51,497 nt of DNA from a virus. The stretch is from IMG/VR virus record IMGVR_UViG_3300034374_010380, positions 1-51,497 of that record; one strand, written 5' to 3'. A program made the position numbers and the translations under genes. Below the pieces are notes generated by a model that saw only the letters and a program-made list of their open reading frames with translations, had not been told where the DNA came from and did not search any database. This document shows, piece by piece, positions 1 to 51,497 of this stretch (the stretch's first letter is position 1; each line of letters starts with the position of its first letter).

Positions 1-1994
1 TCGTTTGAATACCCCTTAGTAGGAGCGTTAGCCACTGTGGGCTCTGGTGTTTCTTGGTTTTCATGTAGCTTCTGAAGTCCAACAGGCTCAGCAGATCCTA
101 GTTGACGAGTTGACCAGAAGTTTTTGATCTGATAGGCAGTATCTAAATTATAGAAAGCTGATTGTGCAATGATAGATTGCTTTTGACCTTCATTTAGAGA
201 CTCCCAAATCGGAGCATATGCTTCAGGCATTTCATCGATGAATTTGTGTCCTGATTTTTCTCCTTCGGCTTCATTTAAAACCTCCTCTGCTTTTTGTGTT
301 TGAGCAGCCGGCTGAATCTTAGATGCAGCCTCATTTATATTCTCCTCGGTCTTTTGTGTTTTGACCGACTCAATTAGAGAATCTATCTTACTAGAGATTG
401 TAGAATAATCTCCAGCAAATCCAGATTCAACCAATTCTGATTTTGAAACAGCTTCAGCGCTTTGTCTTGCACTTTCATTTAGGTTTTCACCCTTAGCTGC
501 TTTTGAACTCTCTGAGATGGATTGAACCTCCGAGATGTTCCCGTTTAGCTTCTCTGCCAAATAGTCAGAGTAAGCGATACCCTTATTTAGGTTTTCTGCG
601 ATATACTCAGAATAAGAAATATTTCTATTTACATTTTCCGCCAAGTATTCAGTGTATCCTATACCTTGGTCTAGTTTCTCTGCGATATACTCCGAGTAAG
701 CGATTCCTTTATCTAGGTTTTCTGCGATATACTCTGAGTAAGCTATACCTTTATCTAGATTTTCTGCAAGGTATTCTGAGTAAGAGATATTTCTATCAAG
801 ATTCTCAGCTACATACTCGGTATATTGTATTCCGTCGTCCAATTTCTCAGCTAAATATTTGCTATAGTCAATTGCTTGATCGACGTTTTCAGCGACATAC
901 TCAGAATAAGAGATAGACTTATCCACATTCTCGGCCAAGTATTTAGAATATGAAATGGTCTTATCCAAATTTTCTGCTAGGTATTTAGAATAAGTGATGC
1001 TGCTGTCAAGGTTTTCAGCTAGATACTCGCCATACTTGATAGCGCTCTCTAGATTCTCAGCTAAATACTCAGAGTACTTCTCTAATTTTTCCACCCTTTC
1101 CTCTAGGGCAGCACAATCAACAGATTTTTCGTTTGTCTCTGATTCAGAAACCTCCGCGTTAACCTGATTTTTCATTTCAACAATCTGTGACTCGATAGCT
1201 TCCATCTTATTCTTTAGCATAATGGAATACTGATTGAGCTCATCAGCAGTAACGTATTCTTTATTGGCCTCCATAATTTTGGATTTATTTTTTTCAGTAT
1301 TAAAGATTTCTTGGAACTCTTCGTTATTTTCAACTTTATATATCTTCACACCAGATTCATTTTCTATTCCTAGTGCCTCGTTTACACATTCTAAGTTGTC
1401 AATAATCGAAGTAGTGTTAATCTTATGTATATCATCCTCGGTAAACCCTGCGCTTTCGTATATTCTTTCTAGCTGTGCATCCTGAAATCCAGGATCAGCT
1501 ACAAGGTCATAAGTGAAGATCTTTTTGATTTGTACCTTCTTGTCAGGTCCGACATTACCCGCTGCTCTTGATGATATGGACAGAGGTATACCAGCATCAA
1601 CCAGTTTTTTAGCTATTTGTCCAGCTGGAGTATCAAGTAGTTTTACCTTTATCTTAAGAACTCTTCCGTCTTTATCGTATTCAAGATCCTCCACAACATG
1701 TGAGATATTCTTAAGTGAGACATCAAAATCCTTCGGGTGATCAAGCTCACCCAGCAATCTATTCTGCTTGATTTTTTCTCTTAGGTATTCTAAATGGGGA
1801 AGGTATTCGCCCTCTTCGTATACCCTTTTGTTATTATTCTCCTTGCCGAATTCAGCGGCAATACCTTGTAGAATATATTCACCGTCACTGGAATCCGCCT
1901 TAGAAACAGCAAGATTATTTTCTTGCTTTTCCAGAATGAATAATAGATTTTCATTCAGCATGTTTGAAAGATCTTCCATTTCTTGGCTTTTCAT
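1..1994 (-). CDS. 21: Prohead core protease (gp21-like) fused to repeat-rich scaffold-like region, 3' end off window
   Basis: The frame stays open from an ATG at 1994 to the left edge (664 codons, no stop), so the C-terminus lies outside the window. Residues about 40-180 match the T4 gp21-type prohead protease: GELDHP (His86) and SISSRAAG (Ser141/142) are placed like the family's catalytic His and Ser, with LDTPAGQIAKKL between them. Such enzymes mature the capsid and scaffold after assembly. After residue about 300 come thirteen copies of a 14-residue helical repeat, then an acidic Glu/Ala region. In T4 the protease (gp21) and scaffold (gp22) are separate proteins, so a fusion is inferred here. 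An in-frame ATG at codon 6 is an alternative start. A GATATATA element ends 11 nt upstream. The major capsid gene would be expected to follow, beyond the left edge. Protease assignment is fairly sure; the scaffold role is inference. Confidence 0.8.
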   Translation of the reverse strand, partial: MKSQEMEDLSNMLNENLLFILEKQENNLAVSKADSSDGEYILQGIAAEFGKENNNKRVYEEGEYLPHLEYLREKIKQNRLLGELDHPKDFDVSLKNISHVVEDLEYDKDGRVLKIKVKLLDTPAGQIAKKLVDAGIPLSISSRAAGNVGPDKKVQIKKIFTYDLVADPGFQDAQLERIYESAGFTEDDIHKINTTSIIDNLECVNEALGIENESGVKIYKVENNEEFQEIFNTEKNKSKIMEANKEYVTADELNQYSIMLKNKMEAIESQIVEMKNQVNAEVSESETNEKSVDCAALEERVEKLEKYSEYLAENLESAIKYGEYLAENLDSSITYSKYLAENLDKTISYSKYLAENVDKSISYSEYVAENVDQAIDYSKYLAEKLDDGIQYTEYVAENLDRNISYSEYLAENLDKGIAYSEYIAENLDKGIAYSEYIAEKLDQGIGYTEYLAENVNRNISYSEYIAENLNKGIAYSDYLAEKLNGNISEVQSISESSKAAKGENLNESARQSAEAVSKSELVESGFAGDYSTISSKIDSLIESVKTQKTEENINEAASKIQPAAQTQKAEEVLNEAEGEKSGHKFIDEMPEAYAPIWESLNEGQKQSIIAQSAFYNLDTAYQIKNFWSTRQLGSAEPVGLQKLHENQETPEPTVANAPTKGYSN
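531..1076 (-). repeat. 13 tandem copies of a 42-bp / 14-residue coding repeat
   Basis: Inside the protease-scaffold frame, thirteen consecutive 14-residue units of the form Y-S-E-Y-L-A-E-N-L-D-K-G-I-A run without gaps (546 bp). Tyr1, Tyr4, Ala6, Glu7, Leu/Val9 and Ile13 are nearly invariant while positions 10-12 and 14 vary. Fourteen residues equal two heptads, so a long amphipathic helix or coiled coil is likely. DNA copies are diverged at synonymous sites, so selection is on the protein. Confidence 0.9.
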
Positions 1995-2005
1995 TTATTT
2001 AACTT

Positions 2006-2013
2006 TATATATC
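2006..2013 (-). promoter_or_regulatory. GATATATA element (putative late promoter)
   Basis: On the minus strand this reads GGATATATAAA, ending 11 nt before the protease start. It belongs to a set of near-identical elements upstream of many genes here and resembles the T4 late promoter box (TATAAATA) in position and composition. Confidence 0.5.
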
Positions 2014-14830: not shown

Positions 14831-16426
14831 TTATAGTGTAAAATCAGCTGAAGATTCCTCCTCACCCCCAGCTTCCTTAGCCTTTTCCTCGGCCTCTTTC
14901 TCCTCCCTCTCTTTGTACTTCTCGTTTTTCTTATACTCGTCCACGGTTAGTCCAAGCCATCTCTTTATCAAGAATTCCTTATCAAAATAAGGAACCTCCT
15001 CCTCACCAATCTTCTGCTTCATTTCACCAAGATCATTCACAAAAGCTGCCCTCTTGGTATAGTTCTGAAGCTGTATGAATTGTTCAAAGATATTCTCCCT
15101 TGTAAATTCAAGACCAAGATTAACTTTGAAAGACCTATCTTTAGCAAGATGAGGGTAGTCCAGGCACATCTGTATATAAAGTGGTTTAACTAGTATCTCC
15201 TGGAATATCGATCTCAGTCTCGTCAAAAATTTCTCATACCTTATTTCATCCCTCTCCAATTGATCTATGCTTATTTGGTAATTAGCCGGAGTTCCACCAC
15301 GGAAAGAAAATCTAGCATATGGTATCTTAGAATCAAGCTTGAGTTTATTGTAGAAATATACCACGTTTTCCATTACATTAAAATCCGGCCCTGCAGGATC
15401 CAATGTGGAGATTTCAGGAGATTGCCCATCCTTCTCAGGGAAAAGATAGTTCTTATAGAATTGCACCTTTGGCCTTCCGTTAACAGTAAGTTCTCCTGAA
15501 AAATCGTTAAGTTCAATCTCTTCCTTATAAATGGACATCAATTGACCCAAGGTATTCATAGCTTTCTGAGGTGACTGGGTCCCAACAGGAATAACGAACT
15601 TGAGTCTATAAGAGGCATTCATCACATTCCATATAACCCTAGTATTCTCCATTATTCGGAGTATATTGTAGGATCTTATGAGTCTTTCGATATAGCTAAC
15701 TCTAGAAATAGTATTTCCCTTAGCATAGGATAAGTAAATTATTTGCTCATCCCTGAGCTTTCTGGTCATTTTGTTATCCTCCGGGTATTGTATCCAGATC
15801 TGCTTATACTCGCCATTTTCTTGTGGCTCAGTAGCAGGCTGAAGTGAGGTTGGATCGAGTTCTTTGAAACCCACTATTTTTTTACCATCAGTTGAGTATA
15901 CTATCTCAAAGGCCAAAAATCCATCAATCAAGAATTGTCTGAAGTATTGCCAAGCCAATATCGATTGTTGGAACCCGAACATCATATAGAGACTCCTGAA
16001 TCTACTGTCCATACTATCCAAAACCTCATCCTTTAGCTCCATGTTAGCTACCTTCGAGTATGCAAAGAAATTCTTATCATCATAATTTATTGCATCATCA
16101 GTAAGCGTATCTAGGATGAAATCTATCTCTCCATTAAGGGAGAACTTCCTTAGAAAATCCCTCTTACCCACATAGTCCTTGTCGAAATATGCTATGTACT
16201 TTCTTATCTTGGTATCCTGATACCCGAGTGTCCACCTAAAAGCCGAGTTTTCAGTAAATCCCGTTCCCTGCTGGTCAAAAAAATTGGACTCGGTCTGTCC
16301 GATAGCCTGAGAATTACGGATTACCATATCCTCATACTTCATACCAAACCTCCCGATTCTACTAAGGTTACGATATAAGTTACCTAAGAAGGTCCTTTCC
16401 TGTATGTTATCTAGAAATCCTGCCAT
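14831..16426 (-). CDS. 20: Portal protein, copy B (gp20-like)
   Basis: This 531-residue protein matches the T4 gp20 portal architecture, notably the C-terminal stretch VVYFYNKL--KIPYAR----ERDEIRYEKFLTRLRSIFQEIL, which corresponds to the gp20 region reading KYFQNKFYKAL-IP-SR...ELKFTKF-RLR. The portal forms the dodecameric DNA channel at the capsid vertex and start site of head assembly. The C-terminus (about 495-531) is a Lys/Glu helix. It is strongly similar along its whole length to the upstream gene (for example NSQAIGQTE, DKDYVGKRD, LRKFSLN, AWQYFRQ, DGFLAFEIVY). The gap to copy A is 10 nt. Confidence 0.85.
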   Translation of the reverse strand: MAGFLDNIQERTFLGNLYRNLSRIGRFGMKYEDMVIRNSQAIGQTESNFFDQQGTGFTENSAFRWTLGYQDTKIRKYIAYFDKDYVGKRDFLRKFSLNGEIDFILDTLTDDAINYDDKNFFAYSKVANMELKDEVLDSMDSRFRSLYMMFGFQQSILAWQYFRQFLIDGFLAFEIVYSTDGKKIVGFKELDPTSLQPATEPQENGEYKQIWIQYPEDNKMTRKLRDEQIIYLSYAKGNTISRVSYIERLIRSYNILRIMENTRVIWNVMNASYRLKFVIPVGTQSPQKAMNTLGQLMSIYKEEIELNDFSGELTVNGRPKVQFYKNYLFPEKDGQSPEISTLDPAGPDFNVMENVVYFYNKLKLDSKIPYARFSFRGGTPANYQISIDQLERDEIRYEKFLTRLRSIFQEILVKPLYIQMCLDYPHLAKDRSFKVNLGLEFTRENIFEQFIQLQNYTKRAAFVNDLGEMKQKIGEEEVPYFDKEFLIKRWLGLTVDEYKKNEKYKEREEKEAEEKAKEAGGEEESSADFTL

Positions 16427-16436
16427 TTAATTATTC

Positions 16437-18059
16437 TTAGGTTTCCCCCTCAGTACCCTCCGGGGTTTCTTCTGTGGTTTCCTCTGGTGTTTCTTCTCCA
16501 CCCTCTTCCTCTTTTTTACTTTCTTCCTCTTTTTTCTTCTCCTCTGCTCTCTTTTCCTTAGCCTCTTTGTTAGCTTTTATATCGTCTTCGTTCATGCCGA
16601 GATAGTTTTCTATCAGATAAGCCAAAGAAAAGAAAGGTTTCTCGTCATCATCAGTAAGACCATAGAGGGAATCGATCGATTCCTTCTTCTTTGTCATAAT
16701 CTCTATCTCCTGGTTGATCTTAAAAGGATTATCTGAAACAAAATTTAGACCAAGCTGACTTTTGAATAAGTAGTCTTTTTCCAGCTCTGGGAAATCTCTA
16801 CACATCTGAATCCAGAGTGGTTTAACCAGTATATCCTGAAAAATAGATCTCAACCTGCTAATAAATTTGGAGAATCTTATTTCTTCCTTGTCGAGTCCCT
16901 CAGCTCCATTGCTATAATTTCCAATCGATCCACCATCAGGCCCCTGGAATCTAGAGAATGGTATTTTAGATTCCTGCACAAGTTTATCGAAGAAATAAGC
17001 CAGCGGTTGAGGATCATTTAGGTTTGGTCCAGCATTGTTAAGTGGTTCTATAGTAGGTGTACCGTTTACACCTGAAGGCATAAGGTAATTCTTATAAAAT
17101 TGAATCTTAGGTCTTCCGTCTATGGTCAATTCCCCACTTTCGTCATTGAATCTTATATCCTCCTTGTAGATACTCATTAATTCTCCTAATGTCTGCATAG
17201 ACTTCTGAGGAGACCTAGAGCCAATAGGAACTGTCATCTTCATCCTGAATGAAGCATTCATAACAGACCATATAACCCTTGTGTATTCGATTATTCTTAG
17301 CACGTTATAAGGCCTTATCAATCTCTCCGTATAACTTACCCTCGAAACTGAATTACCCTTCGCATAGGAGATGTATATGACTTGAGAATCGTATAGCATT
17401 CTCCTCTTGTTCTGATCCTTTGGATATTGGTACCAAACATTCAACCAAGTTCCATCCTTCTGTTTTTCAACCGAAGGCATTAATGTGGTAGAATCTAATT
17501 CCTTAAATCCAATTATCTCCTTACCGCTATCATCATAAACAATCTCGAATGCAAGGAATCCATCTATAATCAGCTGTCTGAAATACTGCCACGCAGTTAT
17601 ATCATCACTGAAGCCGAACATATCATAGAGCTTCTTGTAATTCGATTCTATTCTGTCTTTAACCTTATCTTTAACATCAGTAAGATTTAGAAAAGCAGGG
17701 TAAGCAAAGAAATTGTAAGAGTCATATGTAATGGACTCATCACAAACAGTGTCGATAATATACTCAATCTCAGGATTGAGTGAAAACTTCCGGAGGTAAT
17801 CCCTCTTACCGACATAGTCCTTATCGTAATATCCAATAAACTGCCGGGTAGAGGTGTCCTGCCTCCCGAGGGAATAGAGCATCGTTTCATCCTCTATATT
17901 GCCCTTCTTCATGAACTCAGCCTCGGTCTGTCCTATGGCTTGAGAGTTCTTAATAACCATATCACCATAGCGCATACCAAAGTTACTCAGCCCCTTTACG
18001 GAGTCACGAATCCTTTGAAATATGGGATTTCCCTGTGGACTTTCAGTAAATCCTGCCAT
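16437..18059 (-). CDS. 20: Portal protein, copy A (gp20-like)
   Basis: This 540-residue portal paralogue shares the MAGF start, NSQAIGQTE, DKDYVGKRDYLRKFSLN, AWQYFRQ, RVSYTERLIRPYN, SPQKSMQTLGELMSIYKED and LRSIFQDILVKPLWIQMC with copy B. By eye more than half of aligned positions are identical. It has a longer Glu/Lys/Thr-rich tail (about 500-540). T4 has a single portal gene, so which copy, or both, is in the vertex is open. It is directly upstream of copy B and downstream of the gp4-like gene. Confidence 0.85.
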   Translation of the reverse strand: MAGFTESPQGNPIFQRIRDSVKGLSNFGMRYGDMVIKNSQAIGQTEAEFMKKGNIEDETMLYSLGRQDTSTRQFIGYYDKDYVGKRDYLRKFSLNPEIEYIIDTVCDESITYDSYNFFAYPAFLNLTDVKDKVKDRIESNYKKLYDMFGFSDDITAWQYFRQLIIDGFLAFEIVYDDSGKEIIGFKELDSTTLMPSVEKQKDGTWLNVWYQYPKDQNKRRMLYDSQVIYISYAKGNSVSRVSYTERLIRPYNVLRIIEYTRVIWSVMNASFRMKMTVPIGSRSPQKSMQTLGELMSIYKEDIRFNDESGELTIDGRPKIQFYKNYLMPSGVNGTPTIEPLNNAGPNLNDPQPLAYFFDKLVQESKIPFSRFQGPDGGSIGNYSNGAEGLDKEEIRFSKFISRLRSIFQDILVKPLWIQMCRDFPELEKDYLFKSQLGLNFVSDNPFKINQEIEIMTKKKESIDSLYGLTDDDEKPFFSLAYLIENYLGMNEDDIKANKEAKEKRAEEKKKEEESKKEEEGGEETPEETTEETPEGTEGET

Positions 18060-32366: not shown

Positions 32367-35300
32367 TTAAACGAATTGTATGAATCCTCCCGCAGAAATA
32401 CCGCCAGTTCTTGTTACAGTTATTCTGTTTATGAACTTCTGTATTCCTCTAGCAGGTTCTATTATCACGTCTATAATTCCCATATTTTGGTCTATTATAG
32501 CAGGGGTATTATTCGAAGAGTCCATTATAACTTGGTAAGCATAAATTCCTCCGCCAGCTCTTACCCCATCCAGATAATTATCAACGAGGGTTTTTATCTC
32601 AAGTCTAATTGAATCCTCATTGAAATCAAATAGGTAATTTGATAGGATTTCCTCTACGTCGCTTTCTAAGCTAATGAGAAGGTCCCTAACATGTACGAGA
32701 TTAAAGGCAGAATTTACTGTTTGATATGCTGTCTGGTTACCAAAGATAACTACGCCTATCCCTCTTTTCTTTATCAGAGGGTTAAGTCCAACAGGCTCCA
32801 ACCAGCCTCTATCAGCATCGGTGAAGTCATATTCAACACCTACTAGGTTATTACCTGAAATAACCCCTCTTTTCTGTCCAGCTATGATATTATAAGGCTC
32901 GCCGTTAGCAAATTTCCTCACAAAGTTGTTGGAGATGTATGCCGCAGGGGGAACGTTTATATTCTTATTGTTCTCCCTAACAGTCAAATATGGGGTGTAA
33001 TAAGCCGCGAACTTAGCTCCCTGATCCTCAGTAGGTAAGCTGAAAGTATATGATGGGTTAAGAGATAAATTACCACCTTCAGCAATATACTGAGACTTTA
33101 GAGGAGGATAAGGATTAGTTGCTGTTGGTGCATCAGTAAATCTAGGATCTGTAGAGTTCCTGAATTGCTCCATTGAAGGTGCATTAATCAAAGCAAGAGC
33201 CTTCTGCCTCATCATTGCAAGTTTGCTAAGCTGATACTTAGAGTTAGGCAAAATTTGACCACTGAACGTATCAACAATATATCTGAATGATATCACATCC
33301 TTAGTAGCAAGGGTAGCAGCGATATTTGTATCATACATAACATCCAACAGTTCAGAAACTCGAGCGTCTGTCCCATTGGGTCTATGGCTGTTATTCATCG
33401 TGAATCCATTCAAGTAAGTGAAATCGAAAGACCTAGTAAACTGAGGGATCGATTTAAACTTCTGTACTTGGATAGGTGAGCCAGCATAGTAGTAAACTGG
33501 TCTAGCAGTCGTCACTTTAACAACCCCTGCAGTAGCAGTTTGTGCAACTGCTGTTACTCTAGTTAATCTGTTTTGTCTATTCTGTCCTACAGTTTCACAA
33601 ATATCCAAATCCGTTGATACTAGCAAGTCACCAACCGAGATAGGAGATGACGGTGAAGAAGATATAGTGAAGTTCGTTGGATCTATATTGGTAATAACAT
33701 TTACGAACTCATTGATTGAACCAACAGAGGAAACTATATCAGTTCTATTTGAAGAAACACTGGATCCTATATTATCCGAAGCATACACTGTACCAAAAGC
33801 AGGATAGTCTTCCAGTTGGGAAGGATTCTGTCTCGCCGTGTTATTGAAAGCCCTAGCGTAAGATACCTTGTACTGATCTCTGTCTATCGTGTTTTCGTAA
33901 GTTATGTAGTTCAGGCTAGTACCAGCAGAGTTCAACCAAAGTTGATCCCCGTCTGCTAATTCATCGTAAAATAAATCCTGGTAGAATTGGGTAGAGAGTT
34001 GCCCGTTAAGAGCATTAGATGCAGTACCACCAGTAACAGAGTTTACGCTATCTATATCAAGATAGTCAGATGCTACTACCTGGTAGTAATCAGCAACAAC
34101 CGCTCCCGTAGCTCCTTCTATATCGCTATATGGACTTACTGAAATACCCTGAGCAGCATATGAAGCAGTATCTAACGGGTGTGTCCACGTCAACAATACC
34201 TCTCCTCCACTCTGTATAGCTCCAGATATCTTAAGTTTAACTAGGTCGTTTTCAGAGAATTGGTTTATAACAGAGCCGGTTAAGCCACTAACCCCGGTAA
34301 CCTTACCTATAATATAGGGAGAGCTTGTAGCCGAAGGTTGTGCGAAATCAACAAGTGTTGTTTTCTGAGCAGATGTTAGAGAAGCTCCAGTGACACCGCT
34401 GTTTGTCTTTAGATAGTGTAATCCCCCGTAGGTTAGTGATGAGTCATAAGCATCAAAACCGTCCTTTGTAATACCCGCAGTTGCTCCTGCTGTATCGTAA
34501 AGCGAGAATAGAGTACCTGTTTTTATAGTACCGGTTGCACCCGTTGCACCGTCAGCTAGTGAATTGGAATTCTTTGCATATAGGTAATCAGCGGTCAGAT
34601 TCTGATCATAGCTAAGGAAGTCCAATCTAGCATCAACTATATCTCTATCAGCGGTCAGTTCATCAATAAGGTGATGTCCAACCAAATCTATCTTGTATGG
34701 ATTTGTACATAATGACTCCATCGCATCTTCGTCGACTGCACAGAAAAGTCCAGTAGAAGGGGTGTTGTTATTAATCAGGGTTTGGATATACTGATTATTA
34801 CCGTTCAGATCAACAAAATCGGGAATCAAACATCCAGTTTGCTGAGTTACTATATTCACATCCGGCTGAGATAAGAAGCTATTTATCTGGCTCTTAACAA
34901 ATCCGTTGTTGGTAAAGTAAGAACTCCATTTGGGGTCAAGAGCAAGAGTTTCATAGTCAGTCCAATCTCCGGAGACCGATATAACATCCACAAAATAGTC
35001 CGAAATATAGTCATACGGGTGCATGAAACTAGGAACGTTATCTGCACCATACCAGTCAATTGCAAAAACATCAAATCCTTGTAGGGGTGGATTGGCATCG
35101 GTTGATTTTCTAACAATCACACTCATTGGCTCCTTACCTAAGTTAACCAGGTTAAAGAGTCTACCAGTATCAACAGTAGAAAGAGTAGCTAAGAAGTAGT
35201 TAGTATCAGCAAACCAGAATCTCTCCTTATTATAGAATGATGAGTAAAGCCTGGAAGTTAATACCCCGTTAGGTTGTTCAGTATCAATAGAATATCCGAA

Positions 35301-35636
35301 GTAGTTAACCTTATCAGCGTTAGAGCTGCTTTCGTCGTTATTTAGACTTAACAAATTCAGAGCAAATACGGGTCCAGTAGATAAACAAGAGAATATAGAT
35401 CTATGGAAATAAGAGCCCTTTGCTTCTAAAGTCTTGTCTATATCTCCAAAGATTGCTACTGCAGTAGTGACATCTGGTAAATATACGGGAGCGTTAAAAG
35501 GTCCTTTATTCGAAAACCCAACAACCAATCTGATCGTCTGTGAGGTTAGAATAATATTCTCCGATGCATCAAACTCCAGTGTATAAACACCCGAGGCTTT
35601 GAATTGTGATAAATCAAGTTTGATTTTCTTTGCCAT
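32367..35636 (-). CDS. 18: Tail sheath protein (gp18-like), enlarged
   Basis: This 1089-residue contractile sheath has the family ends: an N-terminus with LDLSQFKASGVYTLEFD and RLVVGFSNKGPFN, and a C-terminal assembly domain with RGIGVVIFGNQTAY, NLVHVRDLLISLESDVEEIL, IYAYQVIMD and INRITVTRTGG. T4 gp18 has 659 residues, so about 400 extra residues are present. They lie in the middle (about 300-700), are Gly/Ala/Ser/Thr-rich with GATGATG-type stretches, and probably form surface-exposed domains. It is positioned between terminase and tube genes as in T4. Two GATATATA elements precede it. Confidence 0.88.
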   Translation of the reverse strand: MAKKIKLDLSQFKASGVYTLEFDASENIILTSQTIRLVVGFSNKGPFNAPVYLPDVTTAVAIFGDIDKTLEAKGSYFHRSIFSCLSTGPVFALNLLSLNNDESSSNADKVNYFGYSIDTEQPNGVLTSRLYSSFYNKERFWFADTNYFLATLSTVDTGRLFNLVNLGKEPMSVIVRKSTDANPPLQGFDVFAIDWYGADNVPSFMHPYDYISDYFVDVISVSGDWTDYETLALDPKWSSYFTNNGFVKSQINSFLSQPDVNIVTQQTGCLIPDFVDLNGNNQYIQTLINNNTPSTGLFCAVDEDAMESLCTNPYKIDLVGHHLIDELTADRDIVDARLDFLSYDQNLTADYLYAKNSNSLADGATGATGTIKTGTLFSLYDTAGATAGITKDGFDAYDSSLTYGGLHYLKTNSGVTGASLTSAQKTTLVDFAQPSATSSPYIIGKVTGVSGLTGSVINQFSENDLVKLKISGAIQSGGEVLLTWTHPLDTASYAAQGISVSPYSDIEGATGAVVADYYQVVASDYLDIDSVNSVTGGTASNALNGQLSTQFYQDLFYDELADGDQLWLNSAGTSLNYITYENTIDRDQYKVSYARAFNNTARQNPSQLEDYPAFGTVYASDNIGSSVSSNRTDIVSSVGSINEFVNVITNIDPTNFTISSSPSSPISVGDLLVSTDLDICETVGQNRQNRLTRVTAVAQTATAGVVKVTTARPVYYYAGSPIQVQKFKSIPQFTRSFDFTYLNGFTMNNSHRPNGTDARVSELLDVMYDTNIAATLATKDVISFRYIVDTFSGQILPNSKYQLSKLAMMRQKALALINAPSMEQFRNSTDPRFTDAPTATNPYPPLKSQYIAEGGNLSLNPSYTFSLPTEDQGAKFAAYYTPYLTVRENNKNINVPPAAYISNNFVRKFANGEPYNIIAGQKRGVISGNNLVGVEYDFTDADRGWLEPVGLNPLIKKRGIGVVIFGNQTAYQTVNSAFNLVHVRDLLISLESDVEEILSNYLFDFNEDSIRLEIKTLVDNYLDGVRAGGGIYAYQVIMDSSNNTPAIIDQNMGIIDVIIEPARGIQKFINRITVTRTGGISAGGFIQFV

Positions 35637-45394: not shown

Positions 45395-48300
45395 TTATAG
45401 CTTAACAAAGGTGTTATCGGGACAGAAGTAAATGAGCTCCGTGCTTGCGTCCACGATATACCCAACTATCCTCACAATTTCGCCAGTTCCTGATGGGATT
45501 GTGGTACTACAACGTCCAGCAAATGAATCGTTTAGGTATAGAATATCACCCGCGTTACCTGATATATTAAATCCTAGATTAACCAACCCTCTAAGAAGGA
45601 TAGCTTTACCGGCAGCACCATCAAGTGAAACACCTAGCAAATCCGACGCGGTAGTACTTCCGTTATTAGCCTGAGCAGCGGCGTTCCAGTTACCCTGCCA
45701 TGCATAGATAAATCCAGCAGTTGTTGAATTCTGTAATCCCCATTGATCCGCAATTATCGATCCGGATCCAACATATCCCGCTGTAGTTACGGTAGGTTTT
45801 GTTTGTACTATTCCTGTCTGTGTATTCTTCGCGACACTTAAGAGCGAATCAATAGTGGCATTCTGTGAGACATCCAAAGCTCCAGTAACCTGTAGTAGCG
45901 AGCCAGTAAATAGGAGATTTGTCTCTCCGTTTAATTCACCCGTAGTATTGCTACCCGTGATTACTCTGTTGTTAGAGTTGTTGTTAATAGTAGCTGTTCC
46001 AGATGAACCCGAAGACCCAGAGGATCCAGAAGATCCTGAAGAACCTGAGTTACCTGAAGATCCAGAAGATCCTGAGTTACCTGAAGATCCTGATGATCCT
46101 GAAGAACCTGAGGTTCCAGAAGATCCAGAAGATCCTGAGTTACCCGAGTTACCTGAAGATCCTGAAGAACCTGAGTTACCAGATGATCCTGAAGAACCTG
46201 AGGTTCCAGAAGATCCTGAAGAACCTGAGTTACCTGAAGATCCAGAAGATCCTGAGTTACCTGAAGATCCTGATGATCCTGAAGAACCTGAGGTTCCAGA
46301 AGATCCAGAAGATCCTGAGTTACCCGAGTTACCTGAAGATCCTGAAGAACCTGAGTTACCTGAAGATCCTGATGAACCTGATGATCCCGAAGATCCTGAC
46401 GAACCCGAAGAACCTGAGGTTCCAGAAGATCCAGAAGATCCAGAAGAACCTGAGGAACCGGAAGTTCCAGAAGATCCTGATGATCCCGAGTTACCTGAGG
46501 ATCCCGAAGAACCTGAGTTACCTGAAGATCCTGATGAGCCTGATGATCCCGAAGATCCTGATGAACCCGAAGAACCTGAGGTTCCAGAAGATCCAGAAGA
46601 ACCTGAGTTACCTGAAGATCCAGAGGAACCTGATGATCCCGAAGATCCTGATGAACCCGACGAGCCTGAGGTTCCAGAAGATCCAGAAGAACCTGAAGAA
46701 CCTGAAGAACCTGAGGTTCCAGAAGATCCTGAAGAACCTGAGTTACCTGAGGATCCCGAAGAACCTGAGTTACCTGAAGATCCTGATGAGCCTGATGATC
46801 CCGAAGATCCTGATGAACCCGAAGAACCTGAGGTTCCAGAAGATCCAGAAGAACCTGAGTTACCTGAAGATCCAGAGGAACCTGATGATCCCGAAGAACC
46901 GCTAGATCCTGAGGATCCTGAGGTTCCAGAAGATCCAGAAGAACCTGAGTTACCTGAAGATCCTGATGAACCTGATGATCCCGAAGATCCTGATGAACCC
47001 GAAGAACCTGAGGTTCCAGAAGATCCAGAAGAACCTGAGTTACCAGAAGAACCTGATGATCCGGAAGAACCTGATGAACCCGACGAACCTGAGGTTCCAG
47101 AAGAACCAGAAGAGCCTGAGTTACCGGAAGAACCAGAAGAACCTGATGATCCGGAAGAACCTGATGATCCGGAAGAACCGGAAGAACCTGATGAGCCGGA
47201 AGTTCCAGAAGATCCAGAAGAACCTGAGGTTCCAGAAGCCCCAGATACACCCGAGGTTCCCGATGAACCAGAAGAACCCGAAGAACCGGAGGAACCACTA
47301 GATCCTGATGATCCAGATGAGCCTGATGAACCGCTAGATCCTGAAGATCCCGAAGAACCGCTAGATCCTGAGGATCCTGAGGTTCCAGAAGAACCCGATG
47401 AACCGCTAGATCCTGATGAACCTGAAGTTCCAGAAGAACCTGAAGAACCCGATGATCCAGATGAACCCGATGATCCAGATGAACCACTAGATCCTGATGA
47501 TCCCGATGAACCGCTAGATCCTGATGATCCTGAAGTTCCAGAAGAACCCGATGAACCTGAAGATCCAGATGAACCACTAGAACCTGATGTTCCAGAAGAC
47601 CCTGATGATCCAGAAGATCCAGAAGATCCCGATGAACCTGATGAACCACTAGATCCTGAAGTTCCAGCAGTTCCTGATGAACCTGAAGAACCTGATGTTC
47701 CAGAAGACCCTGATGATCCAGAAGATCCAGAAGATCCAGAAGAGCCTGAAGTTCCAGCAGTTCCTGATGAACCTGAGGATCCTGAAGTTCCAGAAGAACC
47801 GCTAGATCCTGATGATCCAGAAGATCCCGATGATCCAGAAGAGCCGCTAGAGCCTGAAGTTCCAGCAGTTCCTGATGAACCTGAGGATCCTGAAGTTCCA
47901 GAAGAACCGCTAGATCCTGATGATCCAGAAGATCCCGATGATCCAGAAGAGCCGCTAGAGCCTGAAGTTCCAGCAGTTCCTGATGAACCTGAAGAACCTG
48001 AAGAACCTGAAGAACCTGATGTTCCAGAAGACCCTGATGATCCAGAAGATCCAGAAGATCCAGAAGATCCTGAAGTTCCAGCAGTTCCTGATGAACCTGA
48101 AGACCCAGACGATCCAGAAGACCCAGAGGATCCAGAAGAGCCGCTAGAGCCTGAAGTTCCAGCAGTTCCTGATGAACCCGATGAACCAGAAGCTCCAGAA
48201 ACTCCAGAGGTTCCAGAAGTTCCAGAAGATCCAGAGGTTCCAGAAGAACCTGATGAACCCGAAGAGCCAGAAGAACCGCTAGATCCAGAAGATCCCGAAG

Positions 48301-51300
48301 ATCCCGAAGATCCAGAAGAGCCGCTAGATCCTGAAGTTCCAGCAGTTCCTGATGAACCTGAAGATCCTGAAGTTCCAGAAGAACCGCTAGATCCAGAAGA
48401 TCCAGAAGATCCCGATGATCCAGAAGAGCCGCTAGAGCCTGAAGTTCCAGCAGTTCCTGATGAACCTGAAGATCCTGAAGAGCCAGAAGAACCGCTAGAT
48501 CCCGAAGATCCCGAAGATCCAGAAGAGCCGCTAGATCCTGAAGTTCCAGCAGTTCCTGATGAACCTGAAGATCCTGAAGTTCCAGAAGAACCGCTAGATC
48601 CAGAAGATCCAGAAGATCCCGATGATCCAGAAGAGCCGCTAGAACCTGAAGTTCCAGCAGTTCCTGATGAACCTGAAGATCCTGAAGTTCCAGAAGAACC
48701 ACTAGATCCCGAAGATCCCGAAGATCCAGAAGAGCCGCTAGATCCTGAAGTTCCAGCAGTTCCTGATGAACCCGAAGATCCTGAAGTTCCAGAAGAACCG
48801 CTAGATCCAGAAGATCCCGATGATCCAGAAGAGCCGCTAGAGCCTGAAGTTCCAGCAGTTCCTGATGAACCTGAAGAGCCAGATGAACCACTAGATCCAG
48901 AAGATCCTGATGATCCCGATGAACCGCTAGATCCTGATGAACCTGAAGTTCCAGAAGAACCTGAGGAACCGCTAGATCCAGAAGATCCAGAAGATCCTGA
49001 TGATCCTGATGATCCTGATGATCCTGAAGTTCCAGAAGAACCTGAGGTTCCAGAAGAACCTGAAGAGCCAGATGAACCGCTAGATCCTGAAGATCCAGAA
49101 GATCCTGATGATCCCGATGAACCGCTAGATCCTGATGATCCAGATGAACCGCTAGATCCCGATGATCCTGAAGTTCCAGAAGAACCTGAGGTTCCAGAAG
49201 ATCCAGAAGAACCTGAAGATCCAGATGAACCTGATGAACCGCTAGATCCAGAAGAACCTGATGAACCACTAGATCCTGAAGTTCCAGAAGAACCTGAGGT
49301 TCCAGAAGATCCAGAAGAACCGCTAGATCCTGATGATCCAGAAGAACCGCTAGATCCCGATGAACCACTAGATCCTGAAGATCCTGAAGTTCCAGAAGAA
49401 CCTGAGGTTCCAGAAGATCCGCTAGATCCTGATGATCCAGATGAACCGCTAGATCCTGATGATCCCGAAGTTCCAGCAGATCCTGATGAACCTGAAGAGC
49501 CAGACGAACCGCTAGATCCAGAAGATCCTGAAGTTCCAGCAGATCCAGAGGTTCCAGAAGATCCTGATGAACCTGAAGAGCCAGATGAACCGCTAGATCC
49601 AGAAGATCCTGATGAACCTGATGATCCTGAAGTTCCAGCAGATCCTGATGAACCTGATGAACCGCTAGATCCCGATGATCCTGAAGTTCCGGAAGATCCT
49701 GAAGATCCAGAAGAACCTGATGAACCGCTAGATCCTGATGAACCTGAAGATCCTGATGAACCTGATGATCCTGAAGTTCCAGCAGATCCTGATGAACCTG
49801 AAGAGCCAGACGAACCGCTAGATCCCGATGATCCTGAAGTTCCAGCAGATCCAGAGGTTCCAGAAGATCCTGATGAACCTGAAGAGCCAGACGAACCGCT
49901 AGATCCAGAAGATCCTGATGAACCTGATGAACCTGATGATCCTGAAGTTCCAGCAGATCCTGATGAACCTGAAGAGCCAGATGAACCGCTAGATCCCGAT
50001 GATCCTGAAGTTCCAGCAGATCCAGAGGTTCCAGAAGATCCAGAAGAACCTGAAGATCCAGAAGAACCTGATGAACCGCTAGATCCCGATGATCCTGAAG
50101 TTCCGGAAGAACCTGAGGTTCCGGAAGATCCTGAAGATCCAGAAGAACCTGATGAACCGCTAGATCCTGATGAACCTGAAGATCCTGATGAACCTGATGA
50201 TCCTGAAGTTCCAGCAGATCCTGATGAACCTGATGAACCGCTAGATCCCGATGATCCCGAAGTTCCGGAAGAACCTGATGAACCGCTAGATCCTGAAGAT
50301 CCAGAAGAGCCTGAGGTTCCAGAAGATCCAGAAGAACCGCTAGATCCTGATGAACCTGATGAACCGCTAGATCCTGATGATCCTGAAGTTCCAGAAGAAC
50401 CTGATGAACCGCTAGATCCTGATGATCCCGAAGTTCCAGCAGATCCAGAGGTTCCAGAAGATCCAGAAGAACCTGAAGATCCAGATGAACCTGATGAACC
50501 TGATGAACCGCTAGATCCTGAAGATCCAGAAGATCCAGATGAACCTGATGAACCACTAGATCCTGAAGTTCCAGAAGAACCTGAGGTTCCAGAAGATCCA
50601 GAAGAACCTGAAGATCCAGATGAACCTGATGAACCTGATGAACCGCTAGATCCTGAAGATCCAGAAGATCCAGATGAACCTGATGAACCACTAGATCCTG
50701 AAGTTCCAGAAGAACCTGAGGTTCCAGAAGATCCAGAAGATCCAGAAGAACCAGAAGAACCTGAAGATCCAGAAGAACCTGAAGATCCAGAAGAACCTGA
50801 TGAACCGCTAGATCCTGAAGATCCTGAAGTTCCAGAAGAACCTGAGGTTCCAGCAGATCCTGAAGATCCAGAAGAACCTGATGAACCGCTAGATCCAGAT
50901 GAACCTGATGAACCGCTAGATCCTGATGATCCCGACGAACCGCTAGATCCTGATGATCCTGAAGTTCCAGAAGAACCTGAGGTTCCAGAAGATCCAGAAG
51001 AACCTGAAGATCCAGATGAACCTGATGAACCGCTAGATCCTGAAGATCCTGAAGTTCCAGAAGAACCTGAGGTTCCAGAAGATCCAGAAGAACCTGAAGA
51101 TCCAGAAGAACCTGATGAACCGCTAGATCCTGATGACCCTGAAGTTCCAGAAGAACCTGAGGTTCCAGAAGATCCGGAAGAACCGCTAGATCCTGATGAT
51201 CCAGAAGAACCGCTAGATCCTGATGATCCCGATGAACCGCTAGATCCTGATGATCCTGAAGTTCCAGAAGAACCTGAGGTTCCAGAAGATCCAGAAGATC

Positions 51301-51497
51301 CAGAAGAACCAGAAGAACCTGAAGATCCAGAAGAACCTGATGAACCGCTAGATCCTGAAGATCCTGAAGTTCCAGAAGAACCTGAGGTTCCAGCAGATCC
51401 TGAAGATCCAGAAGAACCTGATGAACCGCTAGATCCTGAAGATCCTGAAGTTCCAGAAGATCCAGAAGAACCTGAAGATCCAGAAGAACCAGAAGAA
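45395..51497 (-). CDS. Giant Gly-Ser/Thr collagen-like fibre protein, C-terminal part (5' end off window)
   Basis: The true frame is Gly-X-Y (GSS, GTS, GNS, GTA) and runs without a stop from the right edge through the repeat into a unique C-terminal region ending at TAA 45395, 2034 codons in view. The C-terminal 195 residues after the repeat include TINNNSNNRVITGSNTTGEL, LLQVTGALDVSQNATIDSLL, a Trp/Asn-rich region and GDILYLNDSFAGRCS; this resembles a phage fibre tip or shaft-end domain. A 1576-codon open frame on the same strand is out of register and gives only Leu/Asp/His/Gln low complexity, so it is a shadow. The likely role is a long virion fibre. Codons are nearly restricted to Gly, Ser, Thr, Asn and Ala; no Pro. 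Confidence 0.85.
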   Translation of the reverse strand, partial: SSGSSGSSGSSGSSGTSGSSGSSGSSGSSGSSGSAGTSGSSGTSGSSGSSGSSGSSGSSGSSGSSGSSGSSGTSGSSGTSGSSGSSGSSGSSGSSGSSGSSGSSGSSGSSGTSGSSGTSGSSGSSGSSGSSGSSGSSGSSGTSGSSGTSGSSGSSGSSGSSGSSGSSGSSGTSGSSGTSGSSGSSGSSGSSGSSGSSGSSGSSGSSGSSGSSGSAGTSGSSGTSGSSGSSGSSGSSGSSGSSGSSGSSGSSGSSGSSGTSGSSGTSGSSGSSGSSGSSGSSGSSGSSGSSGSSGSSGSSGSSGTSGSSGTSGSSGSSGSSGSSGSSGSSGSSGSSGSSGSSGSSGSSGTSGSAGTSGSSGSSGSSGSSGTSGSSGSSGSSGSSGSSGSSGSSGTSGSSGSSGSSGSSGSSGTSGSSGSSGSSGSSGSAGTSGSSGSSGSSGSSGSSGSSGSSGSSGSSGTSGSSGTSGSSGSSGSSGSSGSSGSSGSSGTSGSAGTSGSSGSSGSSGSSGSSGSAGTSGSSGSSGSSGSSGSSGSSGSSGSSGSSGTSGSAGTSGSSGSSGSSGSSGSSGSAGTSGSSGSSGSSGSSGSSGSSGSSGSSGSSGTSGSSGSSGSSGSSGSAGTSGSSGSSGSSGSSGSSGSSGSSGSSGTSGSAGTSGSSGSSGSSGSSGSSGSAGTSGSSGSSGSSGSSGSSGSSGTSGSSGTSGSSGSSGSSGSSGSSGSSGSSGSSGSSGTSGSSGTSGSSGSSGSSGSSGSSGSSGSSGSSGSSGTSGSSGTSGSSGSSGSSGSSGSSGSSGSSGSSGSSGSSGSSGSSGSSGTSGSSGTSGSSGSSGSSGSSGSSGSSGSSGSSGTSGSSGSSGSSGSSGSSGSSGSSGSSGSSGTAGTSGSSGSSGSSGSSGSSGSSGTSGSSGSSGTAGTSGSSGSSGSSGSSGSSGSSGTSGSSGSSGTAGTSGSSGSSGSSGSSGSSGSSGSSGTSGSSGSSGTAGTSGSSGSSGSSGSSGSSGSSGSSGSSGSSGTAGTSGSSGSSGSSGSSGSSGSSGSSGTSGSSGSSGTAGTSGSSGSSGSSGSSGSSGSSGSSGSSGSSGSSGTSGSSGTSGTSGVSGASGSSGSSGTAGTSGSSGSSGSSGSSGSSGSSGSSGTAGTSGSSGSSGSSGSSGSSGTSGSSGSSGSSGSSGTAGTSGSSGSSGSSGSSGSSGSSGSSGTSGSSGSSGTAGTSGSSGSSGSSGSSGSSGSSGSSGTSGSSGSSGTAGTSGSSGSSGSSGSSGSSGTSGSSGSSGTAGTSGSSGSSGSSGSSGSSGSSGSSGTSGSSGSSGSSGSSGSSGTSGSSGSSGSSGSSGSSGSSGSSGSSGSSGSSGSSGTSGSSGSSGSSGSSGTSGSSGSSGSSGSSGSSGSSGSSGSSGSSGSSGSSGSSGSSGTSGVSGASGTSGSSGSSGTSGSSGSSGSSGSSGSSGSSGSSGSSGNSGSSGSSGTSGSSGSSGSSGSSGSSGNSGSSGSSGTSGSSGSSGSSGSSGSSGSSGNSGSSGSSGTSGSSGSSGSSGSSGSSGSSGNSGSSGSSGTSGSSGSSGSSGSSGSSGSSGNSGSSGSSGNSGSSGSSGTSGSSGSSGSSGSSGTSGSSGSSGSSGSSGSSGSSGNSGSSGSSGTSGSSGSSGSSGSSGSSGSSGNSGSSGSSGNSGSSGSSGTSGSSGSSGSSGSSGTSGSSGSSGSSGSSGSSGSSGNSGSSGSSGNSGNSGSSGSSGTSGSSGSSGSSGNSGSSGSSGNSGSSGSSGTSGSSGSSGNSGSSGSSGNSGNSGSSGSSGTSGSSGSSGSSGNSGSSGSSGNSGSSGSSGSSGSSGSSGTATINNNSNNRVITGSNTTGELNGETNLLFTGSLLQVTGALDVSQNATIDSLLSVAKNTQTGIVQTKPTVTTAGYVGSGSIIADQWGLQNSTTAGFIYAWQGNWNAAAQANNGSTTASDLLGVSLDGAAGKAILLRGLVNLGFNISGNAGDILYLNDSFAGRCSTTIPSGTGEIVRIVGYIVDASTELIYFCPDNTFVKL
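45992..51497 (-). repeat. Imperfect 9-bp (Gly-X-Y) coding repeat, >5.5 kb
   Basis: More than 600 tandem Gly-X-Y triplets, continuing past the right edge. X and Y are almost always Ser or Thr. A C-terminal block (about 46.0-47.1 kb) mixes GSS, GTS and GNS (plus-strand GAGTTACC). From about 46.9 kb onward GNS disappears and units with TCTAGC (plus-strand CGCTAGATCC) dominate. GTA-type units (plus-strand GTTCCAGCAG) recur from 47.65 kb. Higher-order units of a few dozen bases repeat, suggesting growth by unequal recombination. Confidence 0.95.

Follow-up and report, generated by a model that had tools for sequence, protein, structure and literature searches.

The gene at the left end of the window (here, the whole analysed stretch of 51,497 nucleotides) quite likely encodes two products: a T4 gp21-type prohead protease fused to a scaffold, and the scaffold alone, made from a promoter and an ATG nested within the same gene, with the protease later cutting itself free. 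In the model that we propose, the full-length 678-aa protein would take the protease into the prohead core, and the scaffold-only protein (residues 241-678, 438 aa), whose expression would start from a GATATATAA-type promoter in the linker between the two parts and from an ATG some 70 nt further on, would form most of that core. The 14-residue repeats would make up a long acidic helix packing the core, and the C-terminal domain would be likely to contact the capsid protein. Following assembly, the protease would release itself at the invariant [VLIM]NE206/[SAN] site and would then degrade the scaffold at L/I-x-E sites, one possible site being present in most repeats. That the nested promoter and start are active, how much of each product is made, the cleavage and the scaffold function are inferred from sequence. 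The features concerned are the following.

2005..2013, minus strand: GATATATAA motif that may serve as promoter for the entire fusion gene
3..1994, minus strand: fusion gene of protease and scaffold, with 664 of its 678 codons in the window and the remaining 14 and the stop beyond it, completed from contig L002
1377..1910, minus strand: prohead protease domain, residues about 29-206 (PF03420 and phrog_207)
1377..1385, minus strand: VNE206/A, putative site at the protease-scaffold junction where the protease would release itself
1336..1344, minus strand: GATATATAA inside the coding sequence (AAG ATA TAT AAA, K-I-Y-K), putative nested scaffold promoter
1284..1292, minus strand: conserved A-rich sequence AAAAATAAA leading up to the internal start, with the lowest synonymous variation among 653 windows of codons
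1272..1274, minus strand: internal ATG (Met241), where translation of the scaffold-only protein (438 aa, 49 kDa) would begin
3..1274, minus strand: putative nested scaffold cistron, residues 241-678, its 3' end outside the window
531..1076, minus strand: array of 13 repeats of 14 residues (residues 307-488), predicted long alpha helix
3..530, minus strand: C-terminal region, residues 489 onward, a linker with LxE sites, a small conserved helical domain and a C-terminal helix
426..434, minus strand: LVE523/S, conserved putative cleavage site past the repeats (LxE/S in 27/29 relatives)
189..197, minus strand: LNE602/G, putative cleavage site within the C-terminal domain, LxE being conserved in 29/29 relatives
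60..68, minus strand: LHE645/N, putative site that would free the last 33 residues (E645 invariant)

In the window the gene is a single frame, open on the minus strand from the ATG to the window edge (1994..3, 664 codons). The leftward extension to its end, proposed in the initial annotation, was achieved through contig L002, which is 100% identical and completes the gene with 14 more codons and the stop, bringing the total to 678 aa; the major capsid gene of this contig begins 24 bp after that stop. Pfam Peptidase_S77 (PF03420) matches residues 43-149 of the N-terminal half with 31.1 bits, above the curated cutoff of 27 (E 2.1e-7), and phrog_207 (head maturation protease) matches residues 9-288 (E 1.4e-37). 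The single open frame and these two matches bear out the initial annotation in its reading of a protease that runs in frame into thirteen 14-residue units. H86 (in GELDHP) and S141/S142 (in SSRAAG), which we take to be catalytic, are invariant among the aligned relatives, and the sole match of the protease in a PDB search was T4 gp21 (5jbl, E 0.034).

The AlphaFold models are of low to moderate confidence, with a poor pLDDT of 51 for the whole protein and a moderate one of 63 for the scaffold part. Foldseek comparison of the predicted structure with the PDB returned nothing significant, and the structural matches in BFVD were mainly uncharacterised or fused relatives. The best BFVD match to the scaffold half, A0A7S9SUJ9 of Virus NIOZ-UU157 (389 aa), is near the nested product in size and is possibly a stand-alone scaffold or a protein annotated from an internal start. 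As to the C-terminal region, it is acidic, as its earlier description as an acidic tail implied (pI 4.69), but less so than the repeats (pI 4.14), and it holds a conserved helical domain predicted with a pLDDT of about 90.

Synonymous codon variation, measured along the gene in 28 non-redundant relatives (653 windows of codons), is near saturation (median ratio 0.89) and falls lowest at codons 234-243 (0.32) and then at codons 210-220 (0.36). The latter stretch reads NNG ATA TAT A in 28/28 relatives, that is, GATATATA, in genes where AAG makes up only 35% of lysine codons. The same GATATATA precedes the start of the fusion gene by 16-35 nt in 26 loci of close relatives, and in contig L002 the upstream and the embedded copies have an identical GATATATAAAGTT. 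The window has twelve copies, each of them on the coding strand, against a mean of 3.65 over both strands in shuffled windows, and none of 100 shuffles reached 12. Of the copies in the 26 related loci, 113 precede an ORF by 12-80 nt, 26 occupy one and the same place within the fusion gene and 9 lie elsewhere, the chance expectation of a copy at a promoter position being 9%. The consensus GATATATAA, which was derived in this analysis as a putative promoter, stands 12-88 nt upstream of genes, apart from its embedded copy. We read the GATATATAA-type motif as a promoter of the window's phage group, probably a late one because of the genes that follow its copies; our literature search found no description of GATATATAA as a late promoter. 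Most members of the clade of 635-735-kb phages keep an internal AGGATATATGA (AGG ATA TAT), but the intergenic promoters resemble AATATATA, and because of this difference the nested promoter is less certain there. The internal motif is lost in L138 and L161, and in a group of loci similar to L081 the Met is kept and the motif is not.

About 70-76 nt after the embedded motif stands the ATG of Met241. The 25 nt upstream of it contain 60% A, the highest value among the 264 in-frame internal ATGs of the window, the mean upstream A content being 41% for gene starts and 30% for internal ATGs. Met241 is present in every relative inspected, the 735-kb phage included, with the single exception of L141, which has ETEVTSTPEAVKVEDFNKY in its place; the linker before it varies among relatives in both length and sequence. 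The internal Met is often followed by typical N-terminal sequence, e.g., MAEFVKAEDFNKY. The codon after the internal ATG (window 1272-1267, minus strand) is GAG in 25/28 relatives, and since GAG is kept here though GAA dominates elsewhere, ATGGAG appears to be conserved as DNA. A -1 frameshift at A-AAA-AAT was considered as well and rejected, the slippery base not being conserved.

It could be argued that the gene is a plain fusion yielding one protein, in which each scaffold chain carries a protease that is cut off later and the constraint has some other cause. Such an explanation agrees with the continuity of the open frame, with the known single-gene protease and scaffold of P2 (PMC8508860) and with the loss of the internal Met in L141. 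However, it accounts neither for the invariance of ATA TAT in all 28 relatives, where ATA makes up 21% of isoleucine codons, nor for the match of the embedded motif to the one found upstream of genes throughout the genome, nor for the conservation of a Met within a linker of variable length. The other causes of constraint on which it would depend were looked for and not found: no RNA structure is predicted at the constrained stretch, and no alternative frame, overlapping or antisense, stays open across the relatives. We regard a plain fusion as rather unlikely; the embedded motif and the conserved start indicate that the scaffold can also be made alone, from a promoter and a start codon of its own inside the fused gene. 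The initial annotation had described the fused gene correctly, but the putative nested promoter and start codon are absent from its reading.

The putative cleavage sites follow what is known of related proteases, T4 gp21 cleaving after L/I-x-E (PMC9026906) and gp245 of SPN3US removing its own C-terminus (PMC5694885). The [VLIM]NE/[SAN] motif at residue 206 is present in 29/29 aligned relatives, and its Asn-Glu is invariant in alignment A2, which includes huge phages. The capsid protein of this family keeps LNE/SAGAY at the expected propeptide boundary. Most repeat units contain L/I-A-E, which could let the core be cut into 14-residue pieces, although these sites are only suggestive, since any motif of one unit will come back in the others through repetition alone.

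The same plan is found in about 150 relatives, among them phages of 462-735 kb. In IMG/VR, 80 relatives with 46-100% identity came up in a scan, and a profile scan added distant loci; by tblastn the fusion was also located in huge phages deposited separately, of 462, 635, 636, 642 and 735 kb. In the 735-kb record (L086) the portal, fusion and major capsid genes follow in this order with no gene between them. The T4 gp22 family (phrog_237) was not found in 15 large records, the 735-kb phage included. The repeat half was also considered as a gp22 homologue by sequence, and this was rejected, hhalign of the repeat and C-terminal parts with T4 gp22 giving probabilities of 1.3% and 5.3%; what the repeat half shares with phrog_237 is its position between the protease and the major capsid gene. 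Because the order portal-fusion-capsid leaves no recognisable gp22 gene, the repeat half is most likely the head scaffold, as its position, predicted helicity and cleavage motifs suggest. We find it improbable that this half is instead a virion protein, internal or ejected, that the protease brings in: giant phages do package numerous internal proteins that their prohead protease cleaves (PMC5694885), but the gene occupies the gene-22 position right before the capsid gene with no other gp22-like gene found, and LxE sites along the chain fit degradation better than retention.

The array consists of thirteen in-register units with the consensus Y-S-E-Y-L-A-E-N-L-D-K-G-I-S/A, and its 42-nt period was detected independently by Tandem Repeats Finder. 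The DNA copies are only about 70% identical, which implies that the array is old and maintained by selection on the protein. Positions 1, 4, 5, 9 and 13 of the unit are hydrophobic and positions 8, 11 and 12 are polar or Gly; the hydrophobic a/d positions do not repeat every 7 residues within it, and the suggestion of two heptads thus fails, although a long helix is predicted all the same (in a low-confidence model). The initial annotation had further proposed that the copy number sets the dimensions of the prohead. A molecular ruler of this kind is tempting, as an exact period and copy changes by whole units, the only kind of variation seen among relatives, would make changes of length easy. 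However, the count is nearly constant in phages of about 373-735 kb: 13 units are the mode (61 of 145 arrays, with 14 units in another 26), and phages of 735, 642, 636, 635, 462 and 373 kb have 13, 12, 13, 14, 12 and 13 units, respectively. With genome length as a proxy for head size, and the IMG/VR record lengths being lower bounds, unit number shows no relation to it (Spearman rho -0.14, p 0.57, n=20 records), so the scaling of length with the structure measured that is expected of a molecular ruler is not seen, and the corresponding protein of the 540-kb Lak phage is without these 14-residue repeats. A repeat number that stays constant whatever the capsid size is the very outcome that the initial annotation had named as refuting its idea. 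The ruler is excluded in its simple form, and we give the idea very little credence. Of the earlier notion of a protease fused to a helical scaffold-like region, the scaffold part is supported by synteny, the predicted long helix and the conserved L/I-x-E sites, and the ruler role is not supported.

An assembly artefact joining two genes has practically no chance of being the explanation: the same fusion, with no stop or frameshift between protease and repeats, runs uninterrupted in dozens of independent contigs, which is why the frame cannot be an accident of assembly, and in five separately deposited huge-phage genomes, while the broken frames of the short contigs L013 and L065 are of the opposite sense and lend it no support.

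Elsewhere in the window, two adjacent genes on the minus strand (14831-16426 and 16437-18059) both match phrog_213 (T4-type portal) over nearly their full length (E about 1e-58 and 5e-57), and by these matches this is a tandem pair of portal-like proteins. The tail sheath protein (32367-35636, minus strand, 1089 aa) matches the sheath family mainly in its C-terminal third and has a long N-terminal extension. At the right edge a repetitive ORF of more than 1,800 codons (45395-51496, minus strand) remains open, with periods of 45-108 nt over 5.4 kb.

Among the closest known systems is T4, whose genes 21 and 22 share with the locus described here the protease family, the same gene order ahead of the capsid gene, a promoter (here putative) where 21 and 22 meet and the L/I-x-E cleavage logic. 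They differ in being two separate genes and in the promoter overlapping the gene-21 stop; T4 gp22, in turn, has no 14-residue array and no detectable sequence homology with the repeat half. In T4 and four other T4-like phages (loci L092 and L172-L175) gene 22 is preceded at 34-40 nt by its late promoter TATAAATA, part of which coincides with the gene-21 stop codon, whereas in the window's group the boundary motif GATATATAA is translated as K-I-Y-K and contains no stop. A shift of the promoter sequence at the 21/22 boundary could therefore have fused the proteins and left scaffold transcription intact. We think it on balance probable that phages of up to 735 kb have a separately promoted scaffold gene nested in a protease-scaffold fusion by the logic of herpes simplex virus (HSV) UL26/UL26.5, in the T4-type protease lineage, and that the fusion could stem from a change of the stop-containing boundary promoter (TATAAATA) to the sense-readable GATATATAA, the promoter being kept under selection. 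The T4 core contains about 580 copies of gp22 and about 55 of gp21 (PMC9958956). The nested gene would explain how a fusion in one gene could yield far more scaffold than protease, and could thus keep a T4-like ratio of the two.

The fusion itself is not new, because databases already hold fusions of an S77 protease to scaffold-like regions. ORF-300 of Tenacibaculum phage PTm1 (564 aa), annotated as prohead core scaffolding protein and protease, likewise combines the two right before the capsid gene, and its C-terminal domain matches with 39% identity over 44 residues (E 5e-3). Its repeats are different, being W-rich, and neither GATATATA nor TATAAATA occurs inside its gene. The product name as such was dropped as evidence of fusion, since unfused gp21 proteins elsewhere share it.

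The proteases of lambda and P2 are ClpP-like or P2-type, not S77, and lambda Nu3 is made by internal translation and not from its own promoter. The likeness of lambda C/Nu3 and P2 gpO to the present gene is that a single gene encodes both protease and scaffold (PMC8508860); according to Shaw and Murialdo (1980, as cited in PMC8508860), lambda genes C and Nu3 overlap.

The literature that we searched gives no account of a nested scaffold gene in such phages, and as far as it reaches, a nested scaffold with a promoter of its own appears to be new for the T4-type protease lineage. Scaffolds of giant phages are poorly known, the counterpart of T4 gp22 in the phiKZ-like group being unconfirmed as of 2017 (PMC5694885), and the fusion provides a strong scaffold candidate in a separate and abundant set of huge phages. 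It is also a warning for annotators that a functional gene can hide in frame within another.

The overall plan proposed here is that of HSV UL26/UL26.5, where protease and scaffold form one frame with a release site between them and an in-frame scaffold gene nested inside. The release site of UL26 lies after residue 247 of 635 and UL26.5 is identical to the C-terminal part; the long form makes up only about 10% of the scaffold, and UL26.5 supplies most of it (PMC12474303). Of this plan the phage gene shows a protease at the N-terminal and a scaffold, identified by synteny, at the C-terminal end of one frame, and a cleavage site between them, recognised at the sequence level. A putative in-frame internal start has strong comparative support (Met241 conservation, constraint and A-rich context), and the embedded GATATATA, present in every close relative, would be the separate promoter. 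HSV belongs to another virus lineage and infects another host, and a scaffold built from repeats and a motif of the GATATATAA type are particular to the phage group described here. The parallel between them raises the question of whether a separate supply of scaffold is a general need of protease-scaffold fusions.
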